Source: Clostridiales bacterium (GTDB lineage Bacteria > Bacillota > Clostridia > Lachnospirales > Lachnospiraceae). From it: 17,442 nucleotides of DNA. The position numbers were made by a program, and so were the translations under genes. Positions 1 to 16,248 of this stretch are shown here, piece after piece. The DNA lies in contig JAJQIQ010000081.1 of the NCBI GenBank assembly GCA_021199135.1, positions 6,080 through 23,521 on the forward strand. Reading direction: 5' to 3'. The notes under the pieces are model-generated. The model searched no databases, had not been told where the DNA came from, and saw only the letters and a list, made by a program, of their open reading frames with translations. The stretch's first letter is position 1, and each line of letters starts with the position of its first letter.

Positions 1-1319
1 ACGAGGAGGACGGCAAGAAGCAGATAAAGCTTCTCCTCATCGCGATTCCCGACAACCTTCTCACGAACTACTGCCAGTTGGCCGAGCAGATCGGCCTCCG
101 GGTCGACACGTTCGACTACATCGGCAACGGCACCGTGCAGTACATGCGCGGCCTGCTCGATGACAATTCGGTCGTAGTGCAGCTCGAGGAGCAGGCGACG
201 GTCATCAGCATCATAAAGGACAAGAAGCTCGCGTTCCAGCGCGTCACCCCGTACGGCTACAGCTCAGCGCTCGCGTCTGTCGTCGACAACACGGTGCTCG
301 GCGTCAGGGATGAGTACGAGGCGTTCGACTTCCTGCTGAAGAACGACGTGATCTACAGCCGCCCGTACGCGCACGACGCCGGGGACAGCGAGGACGTCGC
401 TAGCCGGCAGGCGCTCCTGGACGAGGCGTACGACGAGCTGAAGGAATCGATGAACTATCACCTCCGCGTCGTGAACACGGCGCTCGAGTACTATCAGAAC
501 CAAGTGAAGGAGGACTTCCAGGGAAGCCTGTTCATGGTCGGCGACGGCTCGCGCTTCGCGGGGCTTTCAAAGCTCTTTGAGTCCGAGCTCCCGCTCTATT
601 CCCGCAAGGTCGACTTCGGAGCCCTGATAGACATAAAGGTCGAGAAGGGCGCGTACGTCGAGGAGAACCGTGACCCGGCGATGATGGCCGGCCTGCTCAC
701 CGTCATCGGCGCGGCGTCGAACCCGATCCAGGTGAACGCCCGCGAGATCGCGACCAGCTCCTCCGACAAGAACATCATGAGGACGGCCTACACGGTCCTC
801 GTCGGTGCGGTTGTCATAAGCATCCTGCTCGTCGCCATCGCCTGCTTCAGGCAGCTGAGCGCGGCGTCGGAGCAGAAGAAGCTCCAGGAGGAGATCTCGA
901 AGCTGACCTACGTCCAGGACATATACGATGAGAACACCTTAGCCTCGAGCAACCTCGAGATGGTCACCACCATCCAGGATGCCACGACGACGAACAACGA
1001 GCAGCTCCTCTCCCTCATAGAGAGCCTCGAGGAGTGCTTCCCGAGCGACATGAGCGTCGAGAGCCTTCAGGCCAGCGACACTACCGTCACGATGAACATG
1101 AAATCATCGGAGCGCATATCTATCGGGCAGCTGCTCTTGAACCTCCAGGATGTGCCGGAGCTCGCGGCGGCGTCAGTTCCTTCCATAGCTGAGTCGACGG
1201 ACGAGCTCGGAAACACCATCTGGACCTACACGGTCACGGCGACATACGCGGATTATCCGCCGGAGGAAGAGACGGAAGAAGCTGAGGCAGAGACGGAGGA
1301 GGTAGAGGAAGATGAATAA
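1..1319 (+). CDS. pilMN: Fused PilM-PilN type IV pilus assembly protein, 5' end missing
   Basis: The reading frame is open from base 3 with no stop, so the gene enters from the left edge; an internal TTG at 78 is not the true start. The first ~250 visible residues resemble the C-terminal part of the actin-like ATPase PilM: an IPDNLL segment near 45, a GLRVDTFDY strand near 93, and MVGDGSRFAGLSKLF near 534-578, where PilM has its glycine-rich nucleotide-site turn. Perhaps 100 N-terminal residues are missing. A single membrane helix follows (about 786-848), then a coiled coil (about 860-1030) and a small alpha/beta domain ending near 1255, the PilN layout. The tail is very acidic (Glu-rich, 1258-1316). 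In family terms, cytoplasmic PilM binds PilN, which pairs with PilO outside the membrane; here PilM and PilN are one chain, as I recall for clostridial PilMN. It overlaps the next gene by 8 bp, implying translational coupling. Confidence 0.85.
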   Translation, partial: EEDGKKQIKLLLIAIPDNLLTNYCQLAEQIGLRVDTFDYIGNGTVQYMRGLLDDNSVVVQLEEQATVISIIKDKKLAFQRVTPYGYSSALASVVDNTVLGVRDEYEAFDFLLKNDVIYSRPYAHDAGDSEDVASRQALLDEAYDELKESMNYHLRVVNTALEYYQNQVKEDFQGSLFMVGDGSRFAGLSKLFESELPLYSRKVDFGALIDIKVEKGAYVEENRDPAMMAGLLTVIGAASNPIQVNAREIATSSSDKNIMRTAYTVLVGAVVISILLVAIACFRQLSAASEQKKLQEEISKLTYVQDIYDENTLASSNLEMVTTIQDATTTNNEQLLSLIESLEECFPSDMSVESLQASDTTVTMNMKSSERISIGQLLLNLQDVPELAAASVPSIAESTDELGNTIWTYTVTATYADYPPEEETEEAEAETEEVEEDE

Positions 1320-2061
1320 GGGCGGCATCAAACTATCGGATTCTGACAAGAGACTCATAATCATACTGCTTTCAATCGTCCTTGTCGTGGTCGTGTATTT
1401 CTTGGTTTTCGCGAGGGGCATGAACAAGGCGAGCGAGATAGAGGCGCAGAACGAGGAGGATCAGCAGACCCTCCAGTCGCTCCAGGATATGGTGGCGCGC
1501 GCGCCGCAGATCCAGGAGCAGACCGAGGAGATGAACGCGGAGCGCGATGAGATAATCTCGCACTACCCGGCGTCGGTGAGGACTGAGGACGTCATCAGGA
1601 ATATCCTCGACATGGAGGACGAGACGAACATCGAGACGAGCGAGGTCTCATTCTCCACCGGCAACGCGATGTCGACCACGATCGCAGCGGCCACGTCATC
1701 GACGGACGACTCCGAGGACGGGGAGGGCGCCAGCACCGCGCAGTCAAAGATATACGGTTACTACACGACGGCGAGCGTCCGCTACGCAGGCGGCTATGAG
1801 GACTTGAAGTCAGTCCTCAGCTATATCGCGGACCTGAACGACCGCACGACGATCTCATCGGTCTCGGCGGCATACGACAGCACGACCGGCCAGCTCGCCG
1901 GCACGATGACCATAAATATGTACTACATGCTCGGCACCGACGCGGAGTACGAGGAGCCTGAGTTCGGCACCATCGACACCGGCGTCGAGAACATCTTCGG
2001 GGCTACGCTCGAGAACGCCGAGGAGGGCGAAGGCGAAGAGCAGGAGGCAGAGGCTGAGTGA
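1312..2061 (+). CDS. pilO: PilO-like type IV pilus alignment protein
   Basis: This 249-residue protein has a short cytoplasmic N-terminus, one membrane helix (about residues 15-34) and a Glu/Gln-rich coiled coil (about 36-85). It then has a YPASVRTEDVI segment typical of PilO after its coiled coil, a Ser/Thr/Asp-rich linker (about 115-142) and a C-terminal ferredoxin-like region (about 147-210, YEDLKSVLSYIADL followed by beta strands). Together these match PilO, the partner of PilN in the inner-membrane alignment complex. The C-terminal ~25 residues are an acidic tail resembling that of PilMN. The ATG at 1312 is preceded by GGAGGAGGT (1295-1303), which lies inside the coding sequence for the upstream acidic tail. 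Identification rests on architecture, order and short motifs, because PilO is poorly conserved in sequence. Confidence 0.8.
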   Translation: MNKGGIKLSDSDKRLIIILLSIVLVVVVYFLVFARGMNKASEIEAQNEEDQQTLQSLQDMVARAPQIQEQTEEMNAERDEIISHYPASVRTEDVIRNILDMEDETNIETSEVSFSTGNAMSTTIAAATSSTDDSEDGEGASTAQSKIYGYYTTASVRYAGGYEDLKSVLSYIADLNDRTTISSVSAAYDSTTGQLAGTMTINMYYMLGTDAEYEEPEFGTIDTGVENIFGATLENAEEGEGEEQEAEAE

Positions 2062-2121: not shown

Positions 2122-3357
2122 ATGATCTTTGAGCGGTTTAAGCGGCACAAAGGACAGGAAATGGCCGCACATGAAAATGAAAACAAAACTTCATACGGCA
2201 TGGGCGACGCCGGATTCTCCCTCGTCGAGGTCATCATCTCGATGGTTATCCTTGCGCTCATCTCCATCCCGCTGCTGGGGTACTTCACGAACTCCGCGAA
2301 GTACAACTCGCTGATGGCGACGCAGCAGAGGGCGACCGCATTGGCGCAGCAGATCGTCGAGGACATGAAGGAGCAGACCGACCTCATACAGGACACCAGG
2401 GACGACACGGGGAACCTCACGGACATCCAGTCGGGCTACTTGGATGGTTTGGGCTATATCCCCACCAAATACACCACTTCGACCAAGAATACCGAGGGGA
2501 GCGTCACCACGTACGGGTCGGTAGTGTACAACGGCAAGGCATCCGATATCGGTGAGAACTACGACGTGAAGGTTACCTTCACCGACACCAACGACAACAA
2601 CACTGATGTCTACGAGATCCCGAACATGGACAGCGACACCGACGTGATCGCCCTTGACCTGGACCAGAACAACAGCAGCGCAGTCTCATACTTCATGGCT
2701 CTGAACGCGATGTGGGCGAGCAGCGGCGGTGAGGGTGATTCTAGGACAGCGGCATCGAAAGAGGATGTTGAGTCCCGCCTCCAGCGCACGATCACGGTAT
2801 TGATTCAGCAGTCCAGCGGCCACTACCACGTGACGGTCTCGAGCACCTACACCTGCGACGGCCTCAATGGCGCGGATGGCGAGACCTACGAGGCCTCGGA
2901 CCTCGCGGACAGCTACGTGAACGAGCTCGGAAAGATATATGTCATGTTCTACGCGAATGTGAACAGCACTGGCGCGATTAACGACGAAGTCATCATCGAG
3001 AACCTTGCGTCGACTGACTGTTCCCCTGACATTATCTTGGCATGCCAGAACCTCGGCGACGTAGATAAAGAAAGATATGTCATGGCTGTCGGCGGCAAGG
3101 ACTCGGCCGACTCAGACACATTTGTCATTGGCATGAGCAGCGTGGCTGGCACGATAAGGACAAATCTCGCCAGGTTGTATTCCCTGTATACGGATGGTAC
3201 TTTGGGAAGCGCTGACAGCTTCGATTACTCGGCCCTGACCGACAAGGAGGAGGAGACCCGCCGTGTGAACATCGAGGTCTCGGTATACAAGAAGGGCACG
3301 ATGGACACGAGCGACGAGAAGAAGTACATCACGCTCGACGCGACCTATGATATGTAG
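2122..3357 (+). CDS. Minor pilin, PilV/GspI-like prepilin with large C-terminal domain
   Basis: This 411-residue protein carries a class III (prepilin) signal: Gly31 followed by FSLVE and a continuous hydrophobic helix to about residue 55. A prepilin peptidase would cut after Gly31, leaving Phe+1 and Glu+5. Directly after the helix, a region with ATALAQQIVEDMKE (about 69-82) resembles the PilV/GspI N-terminal region. The remaining ~330 residues are Ser/Thr/Asp-rich and predicted beta-rich, much larger than a usual minor pilin, so the protein may carry an added globular domain. It begins 60 bp after pilO and precedes a 282-bp palindrome-rich gap. The leader before Gly31 is long (31 residues from 2122, 18 from the alternative ATG at 2161). 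The pilin call is firm; the subtype is inferred from order and N-terminal resemblance. Confidence 0.8.
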   Translation: MIFERFKRHKGQEMAAHENENKTSYGMGDAGFSLVEVIISMVILALISIPLLGYFTNSAKYNSLMATQQRATALAQQIVEDMKEQTDLIQDTRDDTGNLTDIQSGYLDGLGYIPTKYTTSTKNTEGSVTTYGSVVYNGKASDIGENYDVKVTFTDTNDNNTDVYEIPNMDSDTDVIALDLDQNNSSAVSYFMALNAMWASSGGEGDSRTAASKEDVESRLQRTITVLIQQSSGHYHVTVSSTYTCDGLNGADGETYEASDLADSYVNELGKIYVMFYANVNSTGAINDEVIIENLASTDCSPDIILACQNLGDVDKERYVMAVGGKDSADSDTFVIGMSSVAGTIRTNLARLYSLYTDGTLGSADSFDYSALTDKEEETRRVNIEVSVYKKGTMDTSDEKKYITLDATYDM

Positions 3358-3440
3358 ACACCAGGGGACAAAAGCACGTCAATGCATGCTTGCATGCAAT
3401 TGACGGGATTTGGGACCCGCCCAAACATGAGCAAGTAGCG

Positions 3441-3465
3441 CACCATATGCCGATGGCATATGGTG
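3441..3465. repeat. Perfect 11-bp inverted repeat, loop GAT
   Basis: CACCATATGCC (3441-3451) and GGCATATGGTG (3455-3465) are exact reverse complements around a 3-base loop. This is the longest perfect stem in the 3357-3603 element. Confidence 0.8.
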
Positions 3466-3515
3466 GGCGATGCGCCCGCAAGCGGGCACATTGCAGGGAT
3501 TGCGAATGGTTGGAG

Positions 3516-3548
3516 GGTGCCAGGTGCCAGTGGCACCTGCTAGGCACC
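3516..3548. repeat. Nested double inverted repeat built on GGTGCCA
   Basis: The inner stem CAGGTGCCA (3521-3529) / TGGCACCTG (3531-3539) has a single-base centre. An outer stem GGTGCC (3516-3521) / GGCACC (3543-3548) is also exact, sharing base 3521. GGTGCCA is additionally a direct repeat (3516-3522 and 3523-3529), so alternative pairings are possible. Confidence 0.75.
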
Positions 3549-3639
3549 GACCGAAGCGGAGCGGAGAAGAGAGAGTGCGTAGCACGGAGAAATCCGTGGT
3601 GTCGTTGAAAATCAATCGACGAACGAAAGGAGAGCCGAA

Positions 3640-5964
3640 GTGAAAAAGATTAAGTTTCCTTTTATGAAAAAAGAAGACAGAAACCGCGGAGCGGCGCTCA
3701 TCGCAGTCCTCGTGACGGTAATCTTCATCGGCACGATCGCCGCGATCATCACGACGGTCACAGTGACGAACATCCGCATGAAGGCGATTGAGAAGGGCAG
3801 CCGCGAGAACTTCTACACCTCGGACTCCGTCATAGACGCGCTGACCTCCGGTATAGGCGCCAAGGCCCTCGAGGAGCTCGACGCGGCCTACCAGGACGTC
3901 ATGGGCAATTACGCCTCCTACACCGCGGATGACGCCCAGGACTTGTTCGCGAGGGAGTATATCGACGCGCTGATCTCTGTTTTTCAGCACGTCACGACAG
4001 ACCCTGCGGATCCGAGCGATGCCACGGGCCTCAATACGAATACCGACCCGGACACGGGTCTTGTTACGGCGCAGAGCGCGAAATATAATACCGATACAGT
4101 CAAGGAGTGCCTCCCGGCCGGAGTGGACACGGTATCGGACTGGTTTGCCACGAGCGATGGCGATGCCTTCTACGTCGCGGACTACACCGAGCAGACCTTC
4201 ACCCTGAAAAACATAAAGGTCAAGGAGATGGACTCCCAGGGCTACGAGACTACGATACAGACCGACATCGTCCTCTCGACCCCGTCCCTCGAGCTCACTG
4301 GCGCGGTCACATCCCAGGCCTACATGAACTACTCGCTGATCGCGGATACGGACATAAAGTTTGACACTCCAAACGTCACGGTGGGCGGGAATGTCTACGC
4401 CGGCACGGGAGGAATCATTTCGGCATATATGGCCGGAAGCGGCACCCCGTCCCTGACCGGGGACGTGATCATCACCAGGGGCGACATCGTGAGCAGCGAG
4501 AACGGGACGTCGCTGAGCGTCGGGAACGGAAGCTCATCCATCTGGGCTGAGAACATCACCATCGGCGGCGATTCCACGTCCTTCGACCTGAACGGCAAGA
4601 TCTACATCGCCGACGACCTCGAGGTGAACGGGGCGGACAGCTCGATAGAGCTAAATGGCAGCTACTACGGCTACAACTTCCAGGAGAATTATGGAAGTCT
4701 CAGCCAGACCAGCGATGCGGCGTACAGCAGCGCGATCATCATAAACAACCTGAACTCCAGCGTGGACCTCACGGGGCTTAACTACCTGATGCTCGCGGGG
4801 CGGACCTTCATCTCCCGCAACATCGCCCAGACGTCGAACGATGAGGATGTTACCTATGGCAACATTGAGGGAGAGGATACCGGCGCGGCGGATGTGTTCA
4901 TGGGCGAGTCGCTCTCAGTCCAGTCGAACCAGCTGGCCTACTATGTATCGAACAAGTACCTGGAGCTGGATGATGACGGCGATCCGGTGAAGGATGAGAA
5001 CGGCAATTACATTTTCAATTTCAGCGAGGACGGCCTAGCCGCCTACGAGTCGGCGACCGGCGTCAGCGACCTGATGGACTACCTCAACACGAGCCAGCCG
5101 TTGGTTCCGTACTACTACACGGTGCAGTCGGCGACGGACGGCACCTCGGAGCCGGCAGTGAACTGCTACTTGAACTTCGCGAGTGAGGACAGCGCGAACA
5201 AATTCTTCACCGCCTACATGGCGGGGAGCAAGTCGAGCTCGATCACGAACAAGGCGGAGGACTACCTCGCGAACGATGCTATAATTATTAACGACAGCCT
5301 GGCCTACGCCCTGCGCGGGGATCTCATGTTCCGCACCGAGGCTATGGCGGAGGGCGCGACCGACTCGAACCTGAGCGTGAGAATCGGAGACGCCTGGGGC
5401 AAGGGCAGCGCGCTCTGGGACACCTCAGTCTCCCTCGCAAGGCAGTACAAGGCTTTGGAGCTTACGCTCTCAAACACGAGCTCCGAGGCGACGGCGGACA
5501 ACGTCCGCATTGGCAACAACAAGGAGGACGAGTCGCTCTTCGACTACATCGTCTACACGGACACGCTGAAGAACAACGTAGGTGGCGGCATCAACGTCTC
5601 GCCGAAATCCTATGATGACTTGGATGCCAAGGCCGTTGTTGTAAACAATGAAGGGAAAGGTACCTACAGTGTGCCATCGAACTTCGACAAAGGCCTGGTG
5701 CTTGCGAGCGGCGACGTGTATATCGACCACAATTTCGAGGGCCTCATCATCTGCGGCGGCGAGATCACATTCGGATCCAACGCGACAATCAGCTCTGATG
5801 CAGATTTGATCATGGATCTCTTCGATGCGGACATGGCAGGGGACAACTATTTCGCGATATACTTCAGGGCGTTCAACGTCGGCACGACGACGGGCACGGC
5901 GAGCGCGAACATCGACATCAGCGAGTACCTAGGCTACGCGAACTGGACGAAGAACACCGAGTGA
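3640..5964 (+). CDS. Large PilX/GspK-like pilin-family protein with beta-helix-like body
   Basis: This 774-residue protein starts at GTG 3640, 7 bases after AAAGGAG (3626-3632). The N-terminus has a basic leader ending RNRG (Gly17), then AALIAVLVTVIFIG and a hydrophobic stretch to about residue 45. The next segment (RENFYTSDSVIDAL) is the counterpart of the PilX/GspK 'Q/FQAAEAAL' helix. Glu+5 is absent (Ala), a trait of GspK-type tip pseudopilins. The body shows repeated short beta strands with Gly/Asn turns, strongest at about residues 230-345 and 685-735 (for example GKIYIADDLEVNG and GLVLASGDVYIDHNFEG), suggesting a right-handed beta-helix or bactofilin-like solenoid. It ends in tandem stops (TGATAA). 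A tip-located minor pilin with an enlarged surface domain is the likely role; PilX versus GspK assignment is uncertain. Confidence 0.7.
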   Translation: MKKIKFPFMKKEDRNRGAALIAVLVTVIFIGTIAAIITTVTVTNIRMKAIEKGSRENFYTSDSVIDALTSGIGAKALEELDAAYQDVMGNYASYTADDAQDLFAREYIDALISVFQHVTTDPADPSDATGLNTNTDPDTGLVTAQSAKYNTDTVKECLPAGVDTVSDWFATSDGDAFYVADYTEQTFTLKNIKVKEMDSQGYETTIQTDIVLSTPSLELTGAVTSQAYMNYSLIADTDIKFDTPNVTVGGNVYAGTGGIISAYMAGSGTPSLTGDVIITRGDIVSSENGTSLSVGNGSSSIWAENITIGGDSTSFDLNGKIYIADDLEVNGADSSIELNGSYYGYNFQENYGSLSQTSDAAYSSAIIINNLNSSVDLTGLNYLMLAGRTFISRNIAQTSNDEDVTYGNIEGEDTGAADVFMGESLSVQSNQLAYYVSNKYLELDDDGDPVKDENGNYIFNFSEDGLAAYESATGVSDLMDYLNTSQPLVPYYYTVQSATDGTSEPAVNCYLNFASEDSANKFFTAYMAGSKSSSITNKAEDYLANDAIIINDSLAYALRGDLMFRTEAMAEGATDSNLSVRIGDAWGKGSALWDTSVSLARQYKALELTLSNTSSEATADNVRIGNNKEDESLFDYIVYTDTLKNNVGGGINVSPKSYDDLDAKAVVVNNEGKGTYSVPSNFDKGLVLASGDVYIDHNFEGLIICGGEITFGSNATISSDADLIMDLFDADMAGDNYFAIYFRAFNVGTTTGTASANIDISEYLGYANWTKNTE

Positions 5965-6067: not shown

Positions 6068-6610
6068 ATGATTAAGAAGATGTGGAAGGAAAATCAAAAA
6101 GGCTTTTCACTGGTCGAGATGATCATAGTCATCGCGATTGCGGCGATCCTCGCGGGGGCGGCCATCGGGATGACCAGTCAGCTCCGCTATGCGAACACGA
6201 AGAAGGTCGTGGACACGATCGACGACGCGATCACGAGGCTCCAGGTCACGGCGATGAGCCAGGAGGACATGCCGTACCTCTACATCTACGAGTGCGACGG
6301 CAATGTCTACATGAAGACCACGACCACGGAGCTCACGAGCTACAACGGCACCGTGCTCGACAAGAGCGGCACGAAGCTCACGAACTCAAACATCAAGGTG
6401 TATTCGCAGACGGCAGATGAGGCGAGCACCGAGAGCACGGACGGCTCGGTTTCTGGGACGCAGGTAAGTGGTACTGATTTCATAAAGGTCGCCTACACGC
6501 GCTCGTCGACGTTCTCCGACAAGACTTCGACGGAGTACATCACCGTTGTCGGGAGCCACACGTCGCAGATTCATCTCGTGACGGACACCGGCAAGCATTT
6601 TGTGGACTGA
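6068..6610 (+). CDS. GspH/FimT-like minor pilin (pseudopilin)
   Basis: This 180-residue protein has a 12-residue basic leader ending QKG, then FSLVEMIIVIAIAAILAGAAIG: a canonical prepilin peptidase site with Phe+1 and Glu+5. After the helix, a basic/polar amphipathic region (LRYANTKKVVDTIDDAITRLQVTAMS, cut here as LRYANTKKVVDTIDDAI and onward) leads to a beta-rich C-terminal domain of ~110 residues. Size and layout fit GspH/FimT-class minor pilins. GGGGTGA (6052-6058) precedes the ATG by 9 bases. The 103-bp gap upstream is AT-richer than the genes and holds a GGAAATT direct repeat (6002-6008, 6011-6017). The stop is followed 19 bp later by the next pilin gene. Confidence 0.8.
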   Translation: MIKKMWKENQKGFSLVEMIIVIAIAAILAGAAIGMTSQLRYANTKKVVDTIDDAITRLQVTAMSQEDMPYLYIYECDGNVYMKTTTTELTSYNGTVLDKSGTKLTNSNIKVYSQTADEASTESTDGSVSGTQVSGTDFIKVAYTRSSTFSDKTSTEYITVVGSHTSQIHLVTDTGKHFVD

Positions 6611-6629
6611 TTCGGAGGGAGGAATTGCT

Positions 6630-7313
6630 TTGAGGAAGGATAACAGGGGCCTGTCGCTGGTCGAGCTCATCATCTCGATCGCGATATCGGTCATCATAAT
6701 GGGCGCTGCGATGCTTCTCCTGTCGAGCGCACTCAGGAATTACAATTTCGCCTCCGCGACGATATCAATGCAGTCGCAGGCGCAGGTGCTGATGGAGCAG
6801 ATCAGCAAGTGGACGATGGAGGGCAACCGCCTCGAGGTCGGCACGACATCTGAAGGCGCGGGCTACAGATACCTCATCATCTGGGACATCCCGACGTCCT
6901 ACACTGAGATAGTCACTTCCTCCACGAGCACAAGCACGGGTACAGATGCGGATGCAGACTCGGCCTCGGCCTCGGCTTCGACCGCGTCGAACCGCGTGAT
7001 ATGGTACTCGGATTCCGGCAAGGAGCTCTATATGGCGACGTTCGATAAAATATCGGTCGACGACGTGGACTCCTGGTCCAACAGCATGACGGGCAAGCTG
7101 ACGAGTTGCATGACATCCGATGTCAAGGAGAAGTACCTGATCGGCGATAGCATTACGAGCGCCACGATAGACTACACCGACGACAGCAAGAATGATGAGG
7201 TGGCGATTTCACTCACGTTCAAGAAGGGGACGCAGGAGTACACGCTCTCGAACGACTTCAAGGTGCGCAACATGGTCGTCATGGACTGGGATGCGCTCCG
7301 GGCTTTCGCCTGA
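6630..7313 (+). CDS. PilW/GspJ-like minor pilin
   Basis: Translation most likely begins at TTG 6630, 7 bases after GGAGGGAGG (6614-6622); an upstream in-frame TTG at 6600 lies inside the previous gene, has no such site and would put charged residues before the leader. The resulting 227-residue protein has a very short leader (MRKDNRG) and then LSLVELIISIAISVIIMG, with Leu+1 and Glu+5. A polar helix follows (SQAQVLMEQISKW), typical of PilW/GspJ pilins, then a beta-rich domain interrupted by a low-complexity Ser/Thr/Asp/Ala stretch (about 6916-6990). The C-terminal KVRNMVV strand is a common ending for such pilins. The subtype is inferred from order and the region after the helix. Confidence 0.8.
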   Translation: MRKDNRGLSLVELIISIAISVIIMGAAMLLLSSALRNYNFASATISMQSQAQVLMEQISKWTMEGNRLEVGTTSEGAGYRYLIIWDIPTSYTEIVTSSTSTSTGTDADADSASASASTASNRVIWYSDSGKELYMATFDKISVDDVDSWSNSMTGKLTSCMTSDVKEKYLIGDSITSATIDYTDDSKNDEVAISLTFKKGTQEYTLSNDFKVRNMVVMDWDALRAFA

Positions 7314-7396: not shown

Positions 7397-10300
7397 ATGA
7401 GGAAGAGGACGAGATTCATCAGAAAAAACATGAAGAGGGCAGCGTCGGATAGGCGAGGAGGGGCACAGCTTGCGGTTGTGATTTCCGTGCTCGCCGTCAT
7501 CTGCGTCCTGGTGGCGGTCGTCGCAGGCCTGCACCTGCGCAAGGGCTCCGCGCTCTCGACGAGCGAGGCGGACGCCACGGTCGTCAGGGGAGTGCTCGAC
7601 AGTATTGATGAGCTCAAGGCCGTGAAGACGAACCTTGAGGATGACGCTGGGATGGTTGACAATCCGTTCTTCGTCCTCGAGATCGTGCCGTACGAGGAGT
7701 ACGCCGAGATCGGGTACCAGATTGCGGGCTGCGAGCCGATTACGCTCTACCCGACGATAAATTCCGAGCTTCAAGGTGCGGTCAACACGCTTAATATTGC
7801 GACGATCACACCCTACGCAGCGCTGTACTACTTTGGCGACGAGGAGGAGGCATCGAACCCGCTGAGATATTCCTATAAACAACCATATTGGGTATACACC
7901 GATTCTTATTACGGCTACTATGAGCTCGTCGAGGACGGCACGGGCAATTTCATACAGCAGGACGGCGAGATTGTTGCGCAGGAGGGCGGCAATCTTATTT
8001 GGCATACGGTAAACGGCTCCTATGTGCAGGTGGAAGAGGGCACCGGATATTTCACCAAAATAGGCGACGAATTTGATGAGAATTGGAATTGGATTGATGC
8101 GTCGTATGTCCCGTCTGCAGGCGGAGATTATATTTGGCAGAGCACTCTTAAATCCGACGACGTGGGCGAGGATCAGGCCTTCTCTGACTCGCCCGACAAG
8201 GCCGTCTCCTACATCGGTGACCGCATATACACGACGAGGCAGTGCTCCGAGGACGACCCCGTCTATCAGTGCGACTTCTATTCATACGTAAACAACGACA
8301 ATTTCGTCATCGACACGTTGGGTTTGACCGCAGATGAGGCGGCAACATTCTCAATCGTCATAAAGACCATCACGCCGGAGGAGCTGAACGAGACTCCGGA
8401 GTGGGTGGACTATGCGAATTTGATCTCAATCTCCCCGAAGTCGCACAATGCCGGCATGGTTTCGGCGTGGGAGACCTACAATAGGCTCGGCCATGAGGCG
8501 ACGGCCAACAGGACGGACAATTTCTTCGGGAATGACATCTCCTGGGAGGTCGCGATGAAAATCTACGACAAGGCGACCGCGGATGAGAATTATGCGGGTC
8601 TCATGCTCGACGTGGCCTGCTATGACGTTTCGGGGACCATCTCAGATGAGTATGAAAAGACGGTCACGTTCGACATCCTCGACTGGAACCTTGACCCGGC
8701 GTACTACATGCAGGGTGACGATGTGGTGTATTACACCTACAGCACCACCGGATACAAGAACAACGTCTACAAACTGGCCCTCATGCTGATGAGCATGGAC
8801 ACGAGCGTGTTCAAGTCCCTCTATCTCGACGAGGATGGCCCGAAGGGCGTGAACATCTCGAAGGATGCCTCCGAGGACACCGGGTACTACAACATGCAGG
8901 AGGGCGATGCGGCGATCTACTGGACGGCGCAGACGTTCCTGCCTTTGGCGAGCACCGAGAGCTACGAAAATCCCTTCACCGTTTGGAACTCTGAGGAGAT
9001 GTGGGACAGCTACGGGATAAACGGCAACCTGACGAACAACAGCAAAAATGTGTCGTGGATCAAGGACCACGTGTATGTCTACAACGGCGACAACAGCATC
9101 ACCTCGGGCTATCTGTCCGACGGCGGCGCCGTGAATGGAGAGATGAGCGAGTACGCGGACTATCTCGATAGCATAGACAAGAGCGGGAACGGCTCCCCCT
9201 CCGATGCGGTCCGCTTCATCCTTGGCACGCACAAGAGCACGTACCTGACCGGGACGCTCCGCATCTTGGACATCGAGCCGTGCTACGAGAGCGTCGGCGC
9301 CTGGGAGGACGACGACTCCGTCCCGGAGGGCTGGAGGCTCACCGTGGACGACATAAAGAGCATAATTCCGAATTGCAATAAGTCAACCTTAAATATCGAG
9401 ATCACGCACATGACGACGGCGGCCTTCAACGGCACGGCCGACGACCTGAACAGCGAGTACGACCTGATATACATCGGACTGCAGGACGGCGCGTACAACC
9501 TGAACACGAGCGGCACCCAGATCACGCTCGCGGAGGGCGGCAACTCGACCGAGTACCTGCCGAACTGGAACGACAGCAGCCTGGACGGCTTCATCTACTT
9601 CCACACCGGCGACCTCGTGTACGCGAACGACCCGTCCGCAAACTCGAACAGCCAGGGCGGCGGCGGTGAGAAGGGCCAAAACGTCAACTTCCTCTACACC
9701 GATTCGAGCGGCAACATCATAAACGGCCTGGATTACGGGACGGCGTCCCCGAACGAGAACGAGCTCCGCTATTCCGGCAACGACATCACCGAGCTCATGA
9801 AGGAAAAGCTCGACAATTTCGTCGCGGCGGGATACCCCGTCATCGCGGAGAATGAGCTCTACAACTTGAACAAAAGCATCGTGGACGAGAACTCATACAT
9901 CTACAAGTTCGTCTCCTCGGCGAAGAGCTCCGCAAATTCCGTGCTCTACTCGACGGACGACGGCGATGCGATCTTCGAGACGCTCTACAACAACATGGCC
10001 CCGAGCGTGGACTTCACCTCGCTCCCGGCGATATACAATGGCACCGTCTCAAGCGGATACAAGGTCTCAAGCCCGAACTACCTGACCCGGACCGACGACG
10101 GCGTCCAGCTTCCGTTCGCGTTCACCGTGACGGACAGCGACGAGACGCACAGCTACGCCTACAAGATCTTCTACGACCAGAACCAGGACACCAAGTTCTC
10201 GGACGACGAGATAATCTACGAGGGGAGCGCGTTTTCGACGGGCGGCAGCTCAGCTACGGCCAGCCACACCTGCGTGCTCGACGTCTCGACGATCGGCGTC

Positions 10301-12214
10301 ATCCAGTGGAAGATTGAGGTCTACCGCACGGACAACGAGAACATCTGCTGGAGCGAGAATGGAATTTCCGTGGCCTCCCTCCAGGACGGCGCGGACAAGG
10401 AGAACATCTCCGTCCTGCAGCTCATTCCGAACGACGACACGAGCCGCAGCGACTACCTGAACCTCGAGACCAACAGCTCGTTCAAGAAATATTTCGACGA
10501 GCTGAACGAGTACACGATAAGCGTCGACGCGATGCTCCTCGACGACTACAACAAGCTCTTCTCGACCACCACGGAGGAGGACGAGGACGGCAACGAGGTC
10601 ACCGTGGACTCGGGCTACGTGTTCTCTTACGACACGAACGAGGACGGCACGGTCAAGGATTCGAATATCGACGAAAATAACAGCGTCGACATGCTCTACA
10701 AGAAGTACGACATGATCATCATCGGCTTCGGCGACGCGTACGGCGGCGTGGACCTCACGAACGACGACGGCGAGGTCGACTTCATCAAATATTGGATCGC
10801 CAAGGGCAAAGGTATTTTGTTTACTCATGATTTAACTTCTCTGAACAACAATACCACGGGCAACACCAGCTTTGGCTTCACGGCGAACACCCAGCTGCGC
10901 GACGTCATGGACATGAACCGCTACGGCGCGGTCAGCATGTACTCGAGCGCCATAGCCTCGATCATGAACTACCAGGGCCTGAACAGCCAGGCATACAGCA
11001 CCGTGACCGACATAAGCGGGAACCTGCTCGGCGAGATTCAGGGATTCAGCTATTACGGCATCAAGCGCCTCGCGGCGAACAGCTCCGCGAACACCAATGC
11101 GGGCTATACGATGCCATACCGCTACCTCGTCACGAACCCGTGGGGCGTTTCGGTATCCTCGAAGAGCGCGGCGACTGGCTTCGACGAGGACGACGACCTG
11201 ACCACGAAGGCCACCATGCTCAACGCCGGCCAGATCACGAGCTACCCGTTCGCGATCGACGAGGAGATCAATGTGGCGTCGACGCACGGCCAGTACTACG
11301 AGCTCAACATGGAGGACCCGGAGCTTACCGTCTGGTACTGCCTCGGGAACGACGGCCTCGCGCAGGCGCGCTCATCCGGCGACAAGACGGGTACGGCGAT
11401 GACCTACGGCGTCTCACCGAACGACGCCTCAAACAACTACTACATCTACAGTAAGTCGAATGTCTTCTACTCCGGCGTCGGCCACACGACCGTGACCGAG
11501 GACGGCGAGGGGGACATGGAGATTAGGCTCCTTATAAACACGATCATCGCGGCGTACCGCGCGACCTACCAGCCGCCGGTTGTCATCATCGACAACGACG
11601 AGGACAACAGCACCGCGGACGAGGTCCAGACGACGGCGGCGATCAGCAGCCATAAGACGAGCTATGAGTACTTCTACGACCTCGACGCTACCGACGCGAC
11701 GGCGTTCGAGAAGACCGAGAGTGGCACTTTCCAGTCCACCACGATGGCGGACTACAACGACCAGTACGCGAAGGTCTACTTCACGCCGACCGAGCTGAAC
11801 GGGGCGACGACGACGCTCACGCTCGCGATATACTGCGCCGAGTACGATGGGCCGGACCCGGAGGACTACGAGGGGGACGACGACCCGGTATTCGACTTTG
11901 ACAACTGGGTTCTCTACAATTACACCGACTCGAATGCGAGCATAAGCGGAGGGTATTTCCAGACCATCTACGACGCGGACACGGGCAGCGCGATCAAGGC
12001 CCAGATGACCACGGCAGAAGAGGGCGGGACGGAGTACACCTTCACCGGCATCAAGCAGGGACATCAGTACTACATGTACGTCCCGAAGTCCATGCTCATC
12101 AAGTGCGAGGACATCATATTCAGGATCAACAGCAACAAGGCGGACGGCTACGGCCACACCTGCCTGACGATCGAGGCGGACGACACAGACGTGCCGCTGT
12201 TCATCCTGAATTAA
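7397..12214 (+). CDS. Giant exported DUF5057-like protein, paralogue 1 (1605 aa)
   Basis: ATG 7397 follows GGAGGGAGG (7381-7389). A basic N-terminus (MRKRTRFIRK) precedes one membrane segment (about residues 24-44); the rest is likely extracellular. Recognisable segments: EIVPYEEYAEIG (about 95-107), a tandem GTG-x-F/IW repeat (about 176-252), KTITPEELN (about 325), then RILDIEPCY (about 621) with MTTAAFNG and YDLIYIGLQDG (about 688-698) and AGYPVIAEN (about 810-818). An immunoglobulin-like insert (about 867-998) follows, then VLQLIPN (about 1005), YDMIIIGFGDAYGG (about 1103) and GKGILFTHD (about 1136). HGQYYELNMEDPELTVWYC (about 1297) and YGVSPNDASNNYY (about 1337) lead to a ~200-residue beta-rich C-terminus with YYMYVPKSML. 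I associate these motifs with DUF5057 of Lachnospiraceae, from memory. There is no LPXTG sorting signal. Its function is unknown; its position suggests a pilus-associated surface protein. Confidence 0.75.
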   Translation: MRKRTRFIRKNMKRAASDRRGGAQLAVVISVLAVICVLVAVVAGLHLRKGSALSTSEADATVVRGVLDSIDELKAVKTNLEDDAGMVDNPFFVLEIVPYEEYAEIGYQIAGCEPITLYPTINSELQGAVNTLNIATITPYAALYYFGDEEEASNPLRYSYKQPYWVYTDSYYGYYELVEDGTGNFIQQDGEIVAQEGGNLIWHTVNGSYVQVEEGTGYFTKIGDEFDENWNWIDASYVPSAGGDYIWQSTLKSDDVGEDQAFSDSPDKAVSYIGDRIYTTRQCSEDDPVYQCDFYSYVNNDNFVIDTLGLTADEAATFSIVIKTITPEELNETPEWVDYANLISISPKSHNAGMVSAWETYNRLGHEATANRTDNFFGNDISWEVAMKIYDKATADENYAGLMLDVACYDVSGTISDEYEKTVTFDILDWNLDPAYYMQGDDVVYYTYSTTGYKNNVYKLALMLMSMDTSVFKSLYLDEDGPKGVNISKDASEDTGYYNMQEGDAAIYWTAQTFLPLASTESYENPFTVWNSEEMWDSYGINGNLTNNSKNVSWIKDHVYVYNGDNSITSGYLSDGGAVNGEMSEYADYLDSIDKSGNGSPSDAVRFILGTHKSTYLTGTLRILDIEPCYESVGAWEDDDSVPEGWRLTVDDIKSIIPNCNKSTLNIEITHMTTAAFNGTADDLNSEYDLIYIGLQDGAYNLNTSGTQITLAEGGNSTEYLPNWNDSSLDGFIYFHTGDLVYANDPSANSNSQGGGGEKGQNVNFLYTDSSGNIINGLDYGTASPNENELRYSGNDITELMKEKLDNFVAAGYPVIAENELYNLNKSIVDENSYIYKFVSSAKSSANSVLYSTDDGDAIFETLYNNMAPSVDFTSLPAIYNGTVSSGYKVSSPNYLTRTDDGVQLPFAFTVTDSDETHSYAYKIFYDQNQDTKFSDDEIIYEGSAFSTGGSSATASHTCVLDVSTIGVIQWKIEVYRTDNENICWSENGISVASLQDGADKENISVLQLIPNDDTSRSDYLNLETNSSFKKYFDELNEYTISVDAMLLDDYNKLFSTTTEEDEDGNEVTVDSGYVFSYDTNEDGTVKDSNIDENNSVDMLYKKYDMIIIGFGDAYGGVDLTNDDGEVDFIKYWIAKGKGILFTHDLTSLNNNTTGNTSFGFTANTQLRDVMDMNRYGAVSMYSSAIASIMNYQGLNSQAYSTVTDISGNLLGEIQGFSYYGIKRLAANSSANTNAGYTMPYRYLVTNPWGVSVSSKSAATGFDEDDDLTTKATMLNAGQITSYPFAIDEEINVASTHGQYYELNMEDPELTVWYCLGNDGLAQARSSGDKTGTAMTYGVSPNDASNNYYIYSKSNVFYSGVGHTTVTEDGEGDMEIRLLINTIIAAYRATYQPPVVIIDNDEDNSTADEVQTTAAISSHKTSYEYFYDLDATDATAFEKTESGTFQSTTMADYNDQYAKVYFTPTELNGATTTLTLAIYCAEYDGPDPEDYEGDDDPVFDFDNWVLYNYTDSNASISGGYFQTIYDADTGSAIKAQMTTAEEGGTEYTFTGIKQGHQYYMYVPKSMLIKCEDIIFRINSNKADGYGHTCLTIEADDTDVPLFILN

Positions 12215-12290
12215 AGAAGAGAAACACGCTACATACAGGCAAACGGAACCATGAAACTCTGTCACTGGATACCAGGGAGGGAAGATTTCA

Positions 12291-15200
12291 ATGAGAAAAT
12301 GGACAAGGTTCATAAACAGGAGAAACGCGGTGCAGGCCGTTGCGGGATACGGGAGGGCTGAGATCAAAATCATAGCCTCCGTATTTGCAATCCTCTGCGC
12401 CCTCGTGGTCTGCATCGGCTTCCTGCACGTGCAGCAGGCCGAAGCCCAGATTGTCGGCACTTCGAATTCGACGGTTGTGAGGGGCGTGGTCGACAACCTG
12501 AGCGATTTCTCGAAAGATAAGAATGCAGAGCTCGGCACGGCGGCGAACCCGTTCGTGATCGTTGAGATCGTGCCTTACGAAGAGTATGCTGAGATTGGTT
12601 ACCTTATCGGTGGGTGCGAGCCGGTGGACATGGTTGCAGCGTTGAACGACAATAATTACCAGTATAGTACACCAGCGATACGGGTAGGCACTTATGGGAG
12701 CGACGATTACATAGGCCTCTGGTCGAACAGCTGTGAATCATATTTCTTCTCCGATGAGCCGGAATACACTAAATATACTTATGCATACGGGAGCACAAAA
12801 AGCGTAGGGACTTCGGTCGACGGATATTACGAGCGCGTGGCCTCCGGCGAGGGGACATTCACACAGGACATCTATGGGAGTTTCACAAAGACTTCAAACG
12901 GAAACATCATCTGGCATACCGTAAACGAGGACGAGAAGCTGCTCTATCCTGAGTGGACATTCAATGACAGCACGAAGATTCTGAGCAGCGTCGGGGATCG
13001 CATGTACACCCAGAGGACGGTTACCTCGAGCGATACGTGCAAATCTGTGGGATGGATCAGCTACTACAGAAACTCAGAGCACTTCCTCACGGATACGCTG
13101 TGCCTGTCAGACAGTGAGATAGAAAACTATTCGATTGTCGTAAAAACCATAACAGCGGCTGAACTCAACGAGAATCAGGGCTGGATCGATGTCGCGAACC
13201 TGTTTTATCTCCACAGGACTGCGCCGAATGGGGACAGTTCTGGGACTTATACGAGTCTGTGGAAGACTTATAATCGCCTTGGCCATAGCTCAAGCGCGAC
13301 AAGCTATACGGACACCTTCGAGGGCAGCCGCGACCTGAGCTGGAGCACCACCATGAAGCTGTTTTATAAGATAACGGCAGATACGGACTTCGCTCCCATA
13401 ATGTGGCCAATGAACGTCTATATGCACGGGGCTGCGCCCGATGAGTGGCTCGACAGCGTCACTTTCGATATCATGGACTGGGATTTGGAGTCGTCAGGTG
13501 TCAGCACGAACACAGAGGGAAGCTGCAACAACGTGTTCAAGCTCGCAGTCATGACTATGACTATGGATACGAATTTGTTCAAGCAGCTATATCTGGACGG
13601 CAGCACGTGCTGGATCGATAACAACGGACTCGATCTGCTCCAGAAAAATTCATACGAGAGCGGCGGGCTCGCGGATGCAAATGCGGCGAATTACTGGACC
13701 ATGTACACATTCCTGCTCTCGCCGGAATACCTGTGGTATCCATCAGAGCATGGCTACGATAGTTGGTTCGGTTACTGGAATTCCGATGAGGCATGGGAGA
13801 ATTACAGAATCTACGGAAGCATGGAAAGGTATGATCCATACATAAAGGGACATGTTTTCAGTTTTGGCAACCAGTCGATGCTAAGCCAGTACACGCAGGA
13901 TGTCATGTCCAAAGATGACACCGATATTTACTGGGATGATTTCAGGGATTACATGGACGACTACGATGAGGGATGGACATCCGCAAGCTTCGGCGATGCC
14001 GTCCGCTACATCCTCGGACTCACAAAATCCGGTTCGCTCCGCGTACTCGACGTCGAGCCCTGCTATGATGGAACCGACGCTTGGAGCAGTTCAGAAAACG
14101 GCTGGCTCCTCACCGAGGACGACATAAAGACTATAATTCCGAATGCCTCGAAAAATTATAAGACGATTGAGATCACGCATATGACGACGGCTGCGTTCAA
14201 CGGCCTGGCGAGCGACATAATCGAGGATTACGACCTGATTTACCTCGGCTTGCAGGACGGCGGCTACAACCTGAACACAGGCGGGAGCAAAATCACGCTC
14301 GCGGAGGGCGATGGCACCAGCGAGTACCTCCCAGACTGGAACGACAACAGCATGGACGGCCTCATCTACTTCAGCACCGGCGACGCGGCGGTGGGCAGCA
14401 TCCGCTTCCCGTCGAACGACATAACGGCGCTCAAGAAGGCGAAGCTCCAGAGCTTCCTGAATGCGGGCCATCCTATCATAGCGGAGAATGTGCTCTATGA
14501 CTTGAATAGCAGCGTCATTGACAAGAGCTCCAATATGTATTCGTTCGTGGCTGAGAATGTAGGGAATTCAACACTCTACAGCACGGACGATGGAACTGAC
14601 ATCTTCAATGCGCTTAAAGCGTACTCCGGCTCGAGCGATGGGTCAGCTGATTCGGGAAAAGCCGGAAACAGCGAGGGTATTGCCGTCCTGCAGCTGCTTC
14701 CGAATACCGGGTCAAGCTTTAAGCTCAGCAGCAATTCGGACTTTATGAGCTATCTCAATAGTGTGAGCGACTACAATATCTCCATCGACACCATGACGCT
14801 GGCCGAGTTCGGAGATCTCCTCGCCACGGACGAGGAAGAGGAAGAGGAGGACGGAGAAGAGAACAAGACCTCAGAGATTGAGACACCGTCCGAGGAGGAG
14901 GAGCTCTACCTCACGTACGACTTGATCATCTTGGGATTTGGCGAGAATTACGACGGGTCATATATCTCGGAAAATGAGACCGTCTCGAACTTCATCAACT
15001 ATTGGGCCGAGAGCGGGAAGGGCATCATATTCACGCACGACTTCACGGACACGGACTACACGGATTTCCGCGATGTCATGGTCATGGACCGCGAGACGTC
15101 GGATGGCCTCGGCTACACCTACGACCTGACGAGGCAGCGCGGCAGCACCGGCGGCTCATATGAGATGCCTTACAGCCACCTCGTCAGCAGTACGTCAAAC

Positions 15201-16166
15201 GGCTTTGGCTCCGGCGAGAGCTATACCACGAAGATCACCAGGCTAAACCATACGAGCGAGTATGACGTGACGAACTATCCGTACGTCATCGACGAGACCA
15301 TAACCGTGGGTTCGACGCACGGCCAGAACTTCGAGCTCGACATGGAGGATCCGGACCTCGTAGTATGGTATTGCCTCGGAAATGGCGGCGACGGCGGCGT
15401 GACCTACGGCGTGTCCCCGAACGATGCGTCAAACAACTACTACCTCTACAGCGAGGGCAACGTCTTCTACACCGGCGTCGGCTGCTCGACCTTGAGCAGC
15501 GCGATGGAGGAGAAGCTCCTCGTGAACACGATCGTGGCTGCGTACCGCGCGTCCTACACTCCGTATGTCACGATTGAAAACGACGCGGCCAACAGCACCG
15601 ACAACGAGGTTCAGACCACGACTTCGCTCATGAGCCATAGGCACGTGTCCGAGTACCATTACCTCCTGGAGGCGAACGACGCGACGGCATATGCCTACAG
15701 CGACGGCTCGTTTGTGGCGGACGACGATGCCGACTTCGACGACCAGTACGTCAAGGTTTACTTTACGCCGCAAGAGTTCAACGACAAGAATCCGACGCTT
15801 GAGCTGTCGATCTACACCGTCAGGTACTCAGCGCCAGACGATGAGTCGGAAGACTCGGATTCCAACCCGATGTACGATTACAAGAACTGGTCGCTCTACC
15901 AATACAGCGACACGGACGCGAGCTTGGACGGAGGGTGTTTCGGGAGGATTTACGTTGCCTCGACAGGAGCGTCATTCACCGCGACAAATGGCGTCTTCAG
16001 CGGCGTCGTGAAGGGTCAGACATACTACATGTACGTCCCGAAGTCAATGCTCTCGAGCTGCGACAACATCATGTTTGAGCTCGGCTGCGCCGAGAACACG
16101 GGCGCGGGCCACACCCGCCTCAACGTCGACGCTTCCGGCAAGAACGTCCTGTTCATGCTCGACTAA
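12291..16166 (+). CDS. Giant exported DUF5057-like protein, paralogue 2 (1291 aa)
   Basis: ATG 12291 lies 9 bases after AGGGAGGG (12274-12281), 76 bp downstream of its paralogue, so the two are probably co-transcribed. The N-terminus again reads MRK-TRFI and has one membrane segment (about residues 25-45); QQAEA just after it could also be a signal peptidase site. Shared landmarks: EIVPYEEYAEIG (about 92), KTITAAELN, RVLDVEPCYDG (about 584), MTTAAFNG, YDLIYLGLQDGGYNLN (about 647), AGHPIIAEN (about 725), VLQLLPN (about 798), YDLIILGFGENYDG (about 876), GKGIIFTHDFT (about 909), HGQNFELDMEDPDLVVWYC (about 1010), SPNDASNNYY (about 1041) and YYMYVPKSML (about 1245). It lacks the Ig-like insert of paralogue 1, having a short Ser/Gly linker there, and has an acidic low-complexity loop (about residues 845-866). 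The middle (about 12600-13900) reads as AT-richer than its neighbours. No sortase motif is present and no function is assigned. Confidence 0.75.
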   Translation: MRKWTRFINRRNAVQAVAGYGRAEIKIIASVFAILCALVVCIGFLHVQQAEAQIVGTSNSTVVRGVVDNLSDFSKDKNAELGTAANPFVIVEIVPYEEYAEIGYLIGGCEPVDMVAALNDNNYQYSTPAIRVGTYGSDDYIGLWSNSCESYFFSDEPEYTKYTYAYGSTKSVGTSVDGYYERVASGEGTFTQDIYGSFTKTSNGNIIWHTVNEDEKLLYPEWTFNDSTKILSSVGDRMYTQRTVTSSDTCKSVGWISYYRNSEHFLTDTLCLSDSEIENYSIVVKTITAAELNENQGWIDVANLFYLHRTAPNGDSSGTYTSLWKTYNRLGHSSSATSYTDTFEGSRDLSWSTTMKLFYKITADTDFAPIMWPMNVYMHGAAPDEWLDSVTFDIMDWDLESSGVSTNTEGSCNNVFKLAVMTMTMDTNLFKQLYLDGSTCWIDNNGLDLLQKNSYESGGLADANAANYWTMYTFLLSPEYLWYPSEHGYDSWFGYWNSDEAWENYRIYGSMERYDPYIKGHVFSFGNQSMLSQYTQDVMSKDDTDIYWDDFRDYMDDYDEGWTSASFGDAVRYILGLTKSGSLRVLDVEPCYDGTDAWSSSENGWLLTEDDIKTIIPNASKNYKTIEITHMTTAAFNGLASDIIEDYDLIYLGLQDGGYNLNTGGSKITLAEGDGTSEYLPDWNDNSMDGLIYFSTGDAAVGSIRFPSNDITALKKAKLQSFLNAGHPIIAENVLYDLNSSVIDKSSNMYSFVAENVGNSTLYSTDDGTDIFNALKAYSGSSDGSADSGKAGNSEGIAVLQLLPNTGSSFKLSSNSDFMSYLNSVSDYNISIDTMTLAEFGDLLATDEEEEEEDGEENKTSEIETPSEEEELYLTYDLIILGFGENYDGSYISENETVSNFINYWAESGKGIIFTHDFTDTDYTDFRDVMVMDRETSDGLGYTYDLTRQRGSTGGSYEMPYSHLVSSTSNGFGSGESYTTKITRLNHTSEYDVTNYPYVIDETITVGSTHGQNFELDMEDPDLVVWYCLGNGGDGGVTYGVSPNDASNNYYLYSEGNVFYTGVGCSTLSSAMEEKLLVNTIVAAYRASYTPYVTIENDAANSTDNEVQTTTSLMSHRHVSEYHYLLEANDATAYAYSDGSFVADDDADFDDQYVKVYFTPQEFNDKNPTLELSIYTVRYSAPDDESEDSDSNPMYDYKNWSLYQYSDTDASLDGGCFGRIYVASTGASFTATNGVFSGVVKGQTYYMYVPKSMLSSCDNIMFELGCAENTGAGHTRLNVDASGKNVLFMLD

Positions 16167-16216: not shown

Positions 16217-16248
16217 TGGCGGCCCGGAACTCCCTGGGCCGCCATTTT
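16217..16248 (+). terminator. Intrinsic terminator of the pilus operon
   Basis: TGGCGGCCC (16217-16225) and GGGCCGCCA (16236-16244) form a perfect 9-bp GC-rich stem with a 10-base loop, followed by TTTT (16245-16248). It lies 50 bp after the stop of the second giant gene and upstream of the gltX promoter. Confidence 0.85.

Follow-up and report, generated by a model that had tools for sequence, protein, structure and literature searches.

Giant DUF5057 proteins encoded behind the minor pilins of a Lachnospiraceae type IV pilus are candidate tip proteins of single-membrane bacteria

A review of non-pilin, tip-located effectors of type IV pili names PilC1/PilC2, PulA, and TcpF, all from diderm bacteria, and calls the monoderm machinery simpler (PMC10191384). 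The late or outer-membrane-associated components, PilC/PilY1 among them, are described as missing in monoderms (passages of PMC6916266 and PMC10191384), and the adhesion route described for monoderms runs through modular pilins (PMC8179133, in part). Here we analyze a 17,442-nucleotide stretch of DNA (hereafter the window) from a Clostridiales bacterium of the family Lachnospiraceae, in which two very large, exported-looking proteins of the DUF5057 family (the giants) are encoded directly behind a set of type IV pilus minor-pilin genes. We propose that the giants are probably non-pilin effectors of a clostridial type IV pilus, carried by its minor-pilin tip complex, and that they are a good candidate for the pilus-tip protein thought to be missing from single-membrane bacteria.

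The window lies on contig C205 of a 1.57-Mb assembly that is 73.7% complete. Its genes, all on the forward (+) strand, run in the order PilMN-PilO-PilV-GspK/PilX-FimT-PilW, followed by two tandem DUF5057 paralogs and a terminator. Coordinates below are window positions; loci and genomes that must be told apart carry our own L and G handles.

3..1319, +, C-terminal part of a PilM-PilN fusion whose gene starts upstream of the window (L004:5552); PilN (PF05137) match over the cut-off
1312..2061, +, PilO/GspM-like assembly protein; T2SSM, PilO, and GspM_XpsM matches weak and below cut-off, with synteny
2122..3357, +, PilV/GspI-like minor prepilin, 411 aa; GFSLVE motif and N_methyl match over the cut-off
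3640..5964, +, GspK/PilX-like minor prepilin, 774 aa; leader RG/AALIAV, without Glu5
6068..6610, +, FimT/GspH-like minor prepilin; N_methyl match of 36.6 bits, ComGD and GspH below cut-off
6600..7313, +, PilW/GspJ-like minor prepilin; GLSLVE motif and N_methyl match of 27.8 bits
7397..12214, +, giant 1, DUF5057 protein of 1605 aa with a Sec-type N-terminus; DUF5057 match of 193.3 bits
12291..16166, +, giant 2, DUF5057 protein of 1291 aa, tandem paralog of giant 1; DUF5057 match of 117.3 bits
16217..16244, +, intrinsic terminator behind the operon, 11-bp stem and T-rich tail; terminator scan

Profiles, leaders, and synteny bear out the gene order and coordinates that a preliminary description, made from the letters of the window alone, had given. 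Both giants exceed the curated DUF5057 (PF16480) cut-off of 27.9 bits. The PilN match scores 23.3 bits, over its cut-off, and the PilM_2 open frames of relatives measure about 500–650 aa. The PilV-like protein matches the PilV model TIGR02523 at 30.5 bits, below the cut-off of 52.2. N_methyl exceeds its cut-off in the FimT- and PilW-like proteins too. The gene at 3640–5964 gave no profile match over any cut-off and was assigned as GspK/PilX-like from its leader (RGAALIAVLV), from where it lies in the operon, and from the gene order in relatives. A prepilin peptidase-like gene, named by eye here and by profile in relatives, lies upstream of PilMN (L004:4671-5432). The tight spacing and strong ribosome-binding sites that had been noted are also present: the gaps measure 83 bp (PilW to giant 1) and 76 bp (giant 1 to giant 2), and GGAGG stands ahead of the start codon of both giants. 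As for the statement that no terminator occurs until 16217, the window holds 13 terminator-like sites (chance mean, 12.2), of which 16217–16244 is the longest and the sole one outside genes.

The pilus linkage of these proteins is real, and stronger than could be told from the window's sequence alone. DUF5057 matches were found in 80 of 397 sampled genomes of the same family, in 9 of 391 genomes of a class-level sample (each count includes the window's own genome), and in none of 14 controls. We examined up to 20 kb around 91 DUF5057 genes, 86 of them in 79 other genomes of the family and five in other families. The preliminary description had proposed such a tabulation of neighborhoods, with the question of whether the genes lie mostly away from pilus loci, and they do not. 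At least two of PilMN, PilO, PilV, GspK, FimT, and PilW are encoded upstream on the same strand for 75 of the 86 genes (71 of the 79 genomes), and upstream pilus genes also occur in four of the five class loci outside the family. Another seven of the 86 lie within 2.5 kb of a contig end, too near to judge, and four have room but no pilus gene recognized by profile (L101, L109, L162, and L164). L162 and L164, together with L163 from among the seven contig-end loci, are weak DUF5057 matches, whereas L109 looks like a degenerate locus in which genes resembling PilB, PilT, and PilC (assigned by eye) directly precede a giant that lacks its N-terminus.

The count of 75 is partly circular, because the pilus profiles were built from 40 strictly ordered loci of the same set. 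Two checks are independent of these profiles: for at least 47 of the 86 genes, a Pfam PilM_2 match precedes the giant by 6.9–12.1 kb in the same orientation, and in 79 of 90 loci the giant is likewise preceded by a prepilin motif on its own strand. The place of the giant within the operon is also narrowly defined. Its immediate upstream neighbor is PilW in 72 of 81 loci, with a median gap of 18 bp, and the gap is at most 100 bp in 69 of those 72. In a scan of named genomes that yielded 36 loci, the order pilin-PilD-PilMN-PilO-PilV-GspK-FimT-PilW-giant was present in Roseburia faecis M72 (L015), Butyribacter intestini (L017), Eubacterium sp. MSJ-13 (L014), and two Anaerocolumna genomes (L030 and L031), each of which has a single DUF5057 gene. 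The Roseburia, Butyribacter, and Anaerocolumna examples come from cultured bacteria. Beside the giant in L046 and L101, we noted by eye comM-like, dprA-like, topA-like, codY-like, and flagellar rod genes. Both comM and dprA belong to the competence genes, which makes a part of the pilus in DNA uptake worth considering.

By sequence, the giants themselves are neither pilins nor PilY1 proteins. A basic leader followed by a single hydrophobic stretch was found in 86 of the 90 giant N-termini listed, and the remaining four giants (L087, L110, L123, and L130) are truncated by a contig end. The shared membrane-spanning N-terminus that had been described is more plausibly a predicted Sec signal sequence than an established membrane anchor. 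None of the 90 giants has a prepilin motif, and neither window giant matches N_methyl; we therefore rejected the giants as modular pilins, although the RGGAQLAVV of giant 1 at first resembled GspK. Sortase anchoring was rejected as well, given that LPXTG is absent from the last 60 residues of all 127 giants, in agreement with the earlier remark. The PilY1 domain PF05567 gave no match in either window giant up to an E value of 1 in the Pfam search, as had been supposed; a PilY1 search of 200 genomes of the family also gave no match, but neither did its controls.

The likeness of the two window giants reaches beyond the shared N-terminus that had been described. They are paralogous along almost their whole length, aligning in two BLAST segments of 37.8 and 39.2% identity separated by about 115 residues of giant 1 that are missing from giant 2. 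In its C-terminal part, giant 2 shares 50% identity with giant 1 and no more than 40% with any of the other 48 aligned sequences, which suggests a tandem duplication in the window's lineage. Tandem pairs of large, exported-looking proteins behind PilW also occur elsewhere (L134 and L132, from one genome, and L165). Profile comparison within the giants linked the N-terminal to the middle part (74%) and the middle to the last domain (96.7%, over only 31 aligned columns); the first and last domains compared poorly (17%), and the C-terminal end was linked to no other part. We interpret the giants as a series of related, predicted alpha/beta units that each contain an 'ILEIVP'-like strand and give way to a beta-rich terminal part; the predicted units of giant 2 are as follows.

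12534..13409, +, N-terminal domain region of giant 2, residues 82–373; hhalign with the giant of L178, 98.5%
14037..14630, +, middle domain of giant 2, residues 583–780; hhalign to the last domain, 96.7% over 31 columns
14673..15545, +, last alpha/beta-like domain of giant 2, residues 795–1085, weakly ThuA-like; ThuA matches and alignment

The Pfam DUF5057 model spans only residues 795–1145 of giant 1, across the middle and last domains. ThuA is the second most frequent Pfam family matched by the last unit (5 of 35 members; best E value 0.0027, a weak similarity), and an H and a D are invariant in this domain. Searches of solved structures in the Protein Data Bank with whole, C-terminal, middle, and last-domain profiles returned nothing convincing, the best match being an unrelated ABC ATPase to the middle unit (E value 0.0046).

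A short, conserved C-terminal tail sets the giants apart from the other proteins of their loci. It closes both window giants:

12197..12211, +, conserved C-terminal tail of giant 1, LFILN; tail motif count
16149..16163, +, conserved C-terminal tail of giant 2, LFMLD; tail motif count

Among 118 distinct giants with a complete 3' end, Leu occupies position −2 in 108 and position −5 in 88, Phe occupies position −4 in 87, and the last residue is Asp, Asn, or Glu in 91. The strict pattern [LM]F.[LM].-COOH ends 75 of 116 giants (a set with weak matches dropped and both window giants added); among the 1450 other proteins encoded in these loci it ends 3, and it occurs at 35 of 173844 internal positions. 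A looser pattern ends 105 of the 116 giants versus 40 of the 1450. The Fisher values treat related sequences as independent. A protein search listed 120 homologs, and the motif was present in all 24 inspected, which are mutually close relatives.

The minor pilins that precede the giants fall into four classes, one of which is distinctive. The Glu5 prepilin motif is absent from all 119 distinct GspK-like proteins (and from all 126 before duplicates and cut sequences were removed), as expected of GspK and PilX, versus its presence in 108 of 114 PilV, 110 of 119 FimT, and 102 of 120 PilW proteins. In Myxococcus, a Glu5-less PilX has been modeled adjoining PilY1 (PMC7541494, in part). Once the PilD and PilMN distances had been factored out, distances between giants in 47 complete loci correlated with those of GspK (0.44), PilV (0.42), PilO (0.31), PilW (0.29), and FimT (0.21); the observed value was reached in none of 999 permutations for GspK, PilV, and PilO, in two for PilW, and in 13 for FimT.

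In the model that we propose, Sec would export the giants, the four minor pilins (PilV/GspI, FimT/GspH, PilW/GspJ, and the Glu5-less GspK/PilX) would hold them as a complex, and the giants would be displayed at or near the pilus tip as the filament grows through the thick wall, in the manner of PilY1 on diderm pili and of TcpF/CofJ on type IVb pili. The giants may contact GspK and PilV, with the tail as a docking signal; we infer the latter by analogy with TcpF and CofJ, which ride on their tip minor pilins through a short N-terminal peptide whose aromatic residue is critical. The likeliest use would be adhesion to fiber, mucin, or other cells. More speculatively, and with the balance of probability leaning the other way, monoderm type IV pili might possess their own class of non-pilin tip proteins, in which the GspK/PilX-PilV tip complex would recognize the [LM]F-x-L-[D/N] tail as a signal for sorting or docking. 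If so, the tail would constitute a type IVa pilus secretion signal in Gram-positives and a tag for finding further pilus-carried proteins.

We also asked what occupies the slot behind PilW in loci without DUF5057. Twenty PilMN loci from genomes without a DUF5057 match were picked for long PilM frames among the matches listed, and thus do not form a random sample; 17 were evaluable, L183 and L196 stopping too soon and L197 having no recognizable minor-pilin set. Another giant fills the slot in five of the 17, two of them with strong profile similarity: L178 and L182 encode an exported-looking protein of 903–918 aa that matches the N-terminal part of the DUF5057 giants (98.5% over 257 columns and 97.9% over 82 columns, respectively). 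The similarity is weak for L179 (77% over 27 columns) and L181 (24% over 28 columns), and for L184 (5%) the likeness is by eye only; seven shuffled controls reached at most 0.2%. Among these slot giants, only those of L178 and L182 are well supported. The slot giants share only the N-terminal part with the DUF5057 giants. When the last 230 residues of the slot proteins were compared with the family, all scored under 4%. Two divergent slot giants end in FFMLD (L178) and MFELN (L182). The outgroup protein L165 terminates in PSLD.

The other evaluable loci are more varied. L186 has a lipoprotein-like protein in the slot, and in ten of the 17 no exported-looking protein longer than 600 aa follows the pilins directly; in two of these, L189 and L190, the slot holds a 540–542 aa protein with an N-terminal hydrophobic segment. 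PilW measures 421–1396 aa in eight of the ten loci without a slot giant, a hint that the role may be filled there by modular pilins. Several DUF5057 loci also have a PilW of 591–1145 aa, so a giant and a large PilW are not mutually exclusive. GspK reaches 760 aa or more in all four loci with a slot giant missed by profile (L179, L181, L182, and L184) and does not exceed 710 aa in any of the 11 loci without a giant (the ten plus L186), a threshold chosen after viewing, with L191 (189 aa) and L183 (264 aa) left out and the relatives non-independent. In L191, a 1699-aa gene after the pilins, in the giant's position, encodes an LPETGG-ended surface protein, possibly a sortase-type substitute or a mere neighbor. 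Prepilin-like proteins of 1049–2475 aa occupy the PilV or PilW position in L185, L192, L094, L119, and L137. A modular-pilin survey gives an 860-aa protein as the extreme in number of added domains (PMC8179133).

Several observations weigh against pilus display. Operon membership alone does not prove it, and the giants may exist in a membrane-anchored form with an uncleaved N-terminus. Some giants lie apart from pilus genes: that of L101, between comM-like and dprA-like genes, is a true exception; L027 is a second giant in the metagenome-assembled genome SUG1654, whose pilus-locus giant is L026; and the weak matches L162, L164, and L166 are off any recognized pilus locus. The tail persists in L027 and L101, so a place outside the operon does not entail its loss. 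Three proteins from pilus loci of other families (L167, L168, and L169) have no such tail. The correlation between GspK and PilV (0.55) exceeds any involving the giants, and linkage may explain part of the co-variation because PilO, which is no pilin, also correlates. Finally, the source assembly contains no T2SSF match (PilC) and, outside the window, no N_methyl protein (major pilin), at 73.7% completeness; these absences are possibly an assembly gap.

Elsewhere in the source genome, two T2SSE ATPases, PilB and PilT by size, are encoded on another contig (G000:C177:6456-8569). G672, a 99% complete genome of the same genus, gave no match to DUF5057 and, in a search without a control, none to the giants' N-terminal profile, which suggests that the giant was lost within the genus. 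Between the PilV and GspK genes of the window lies a Clostridiales-1 RNA (RF01699, 65.5 bits; 3356–3604, +). Its 16 matches, 15 of them over the cut-off, are scattered over the partial genome in the manner of a dispersed element, and none reached the gathering score in the seven relatives' loci searched (of 91 fetched). We rejected it as a component of the system.

Three alternatives to tip display were weighed. The giants could be pilus-dependent secreted proteins, pushed through the wall and released, with the tip acting as a piston instead of a display platform, much as TcpF is released by type IVb pili and substrates by the pseudopilus of a type II secretion system; we regard this as unlikely. 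The Sec-type N-terminus, the absence of a sortase motif, and the rarity of a hydrophobic stretch beyond residue 100 (2 of 126 giants) all agree with release, and the minor-pilin set resembles the HIJK set common to type IVa pili and type II secretion systems. The F-containing tail is comparable to the aromatic-bearing peptide that hooks TcpF and CofJ to the tip pilin (PMC9565799, in part), but that peptide is N-terminal, not C-terminal. Moreover, a second T2SSE ATPase next to PilB, here one whose size points to the retraction motor PilT, is a usual feature of true pili, and very large, multi-domain proteins would be better suited to display.

Just as improbable, in our estimate, is that the giants are surface proteins merely co-expressed with the pilus and held by an uncleaved N-terminal helix or loosely by the wall, and that they function independently of it. 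The near-universal N-terminal hydrophobic segment would permit this, as would the few giant genes away from pilus loci. Against it stand the fixed place directly behind PilW, outside the family too, and the co-variation with GspK and PilV; it also leaves the conserved tail unexplained. A role as wall-remodeling or carbohydrate-active enzymes, opening the path of the pilus or acting on glycans through the ThuA-like domain, is very unlikely: the weak ThuA similarity, the invariant H and D, and a 3-keto-disaccharide hydrolase match just over the cut-off in the weak, off-locus L162 speak for it, but no known hydrolase or wall-binding domain was found in the two window giants or the five slot giants, and the latter share only the N-terminal part.

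Carriage by the minor-pilin complex would matter beyond this locus. With a conserved non-pilin giant encoded after a complete HIJK-type minor-pilin set, monoderms would have another means of arming the pilus tip besides modular pilins, one that would concern gut bacteria such as Roseburia and Agathobacter. DUF5057, a family without assigned function, gains a clear hypothesis and, in the tail, a short testable peptide. No mention of the DUF5057 name was found in the literature, most subscription papers being outside coverage, and no described family like the giants was found among titles and abstract openings on monoderm tip adhesins, on Lachnospiraceae or Roseburia pili, and on large proteins secreted from pilus loci, again with subscription papers mostly uncovered. 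A gene-embedding study predicted a Roseburia secretion-related operon with a CpaF-type ATPase and DUF5411 (PMC9523054, in part), which is different from the DUF5057 pilus operon. A survey from 2011 of type IV pili in Gram-positive bacteria contains none of the words PilY1, Roseburia, and Lachnospiraceae, although Eubacterium ventriosum and Ruminococcus gnavus appear in it as carriers of tad operons (PMC3244431).

Among known systems, PilY1/PilC of diderm type IVa pili resembles the giants as a large non-pilin with variable modules, often encoded with the minor pilins, and with a Sec-type signal, which in the giants is a predicted one (PMC7541494 and PMC8179133, each in part). The giants differ in giving no PilY1 domain match and in having other domains, a monoderm host, and a conserved C-terminal tail. 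The convergent clostridial counterpart of PilY1 envisaged in the preliminary description is borne out in part, through the position of the giants, the presence of four minor-pilin classes with one lacking Glu5, the modest co-variation with GspK and PilV, and the tail; 'clostridial' was too wide a scope, given the family and class counts above. TcpF and CofJ are much smaller than the giants. Like them, these type IVb proteins are operon-encoded, and they are soluble and bound to the tip minor pilin by a short, aromatic-keyed peptide (PMC9565799, in part); unlike in the giants, that peptide is N-terminal, and the type IVb pilus has a single minor pilin. The modular pilins PilB and PilC of Streptococcus sanguinis share with the giants the display of large adhesive modules by a monoderm (PMC8179133 and PMC6916266, in part), but they are true pilins with class III leaders, which the giants are not, and some loci carry both a giant and a large PilW. 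The giants, though not members of the PilY1 family, most likely work like PilY1 or TcpF.

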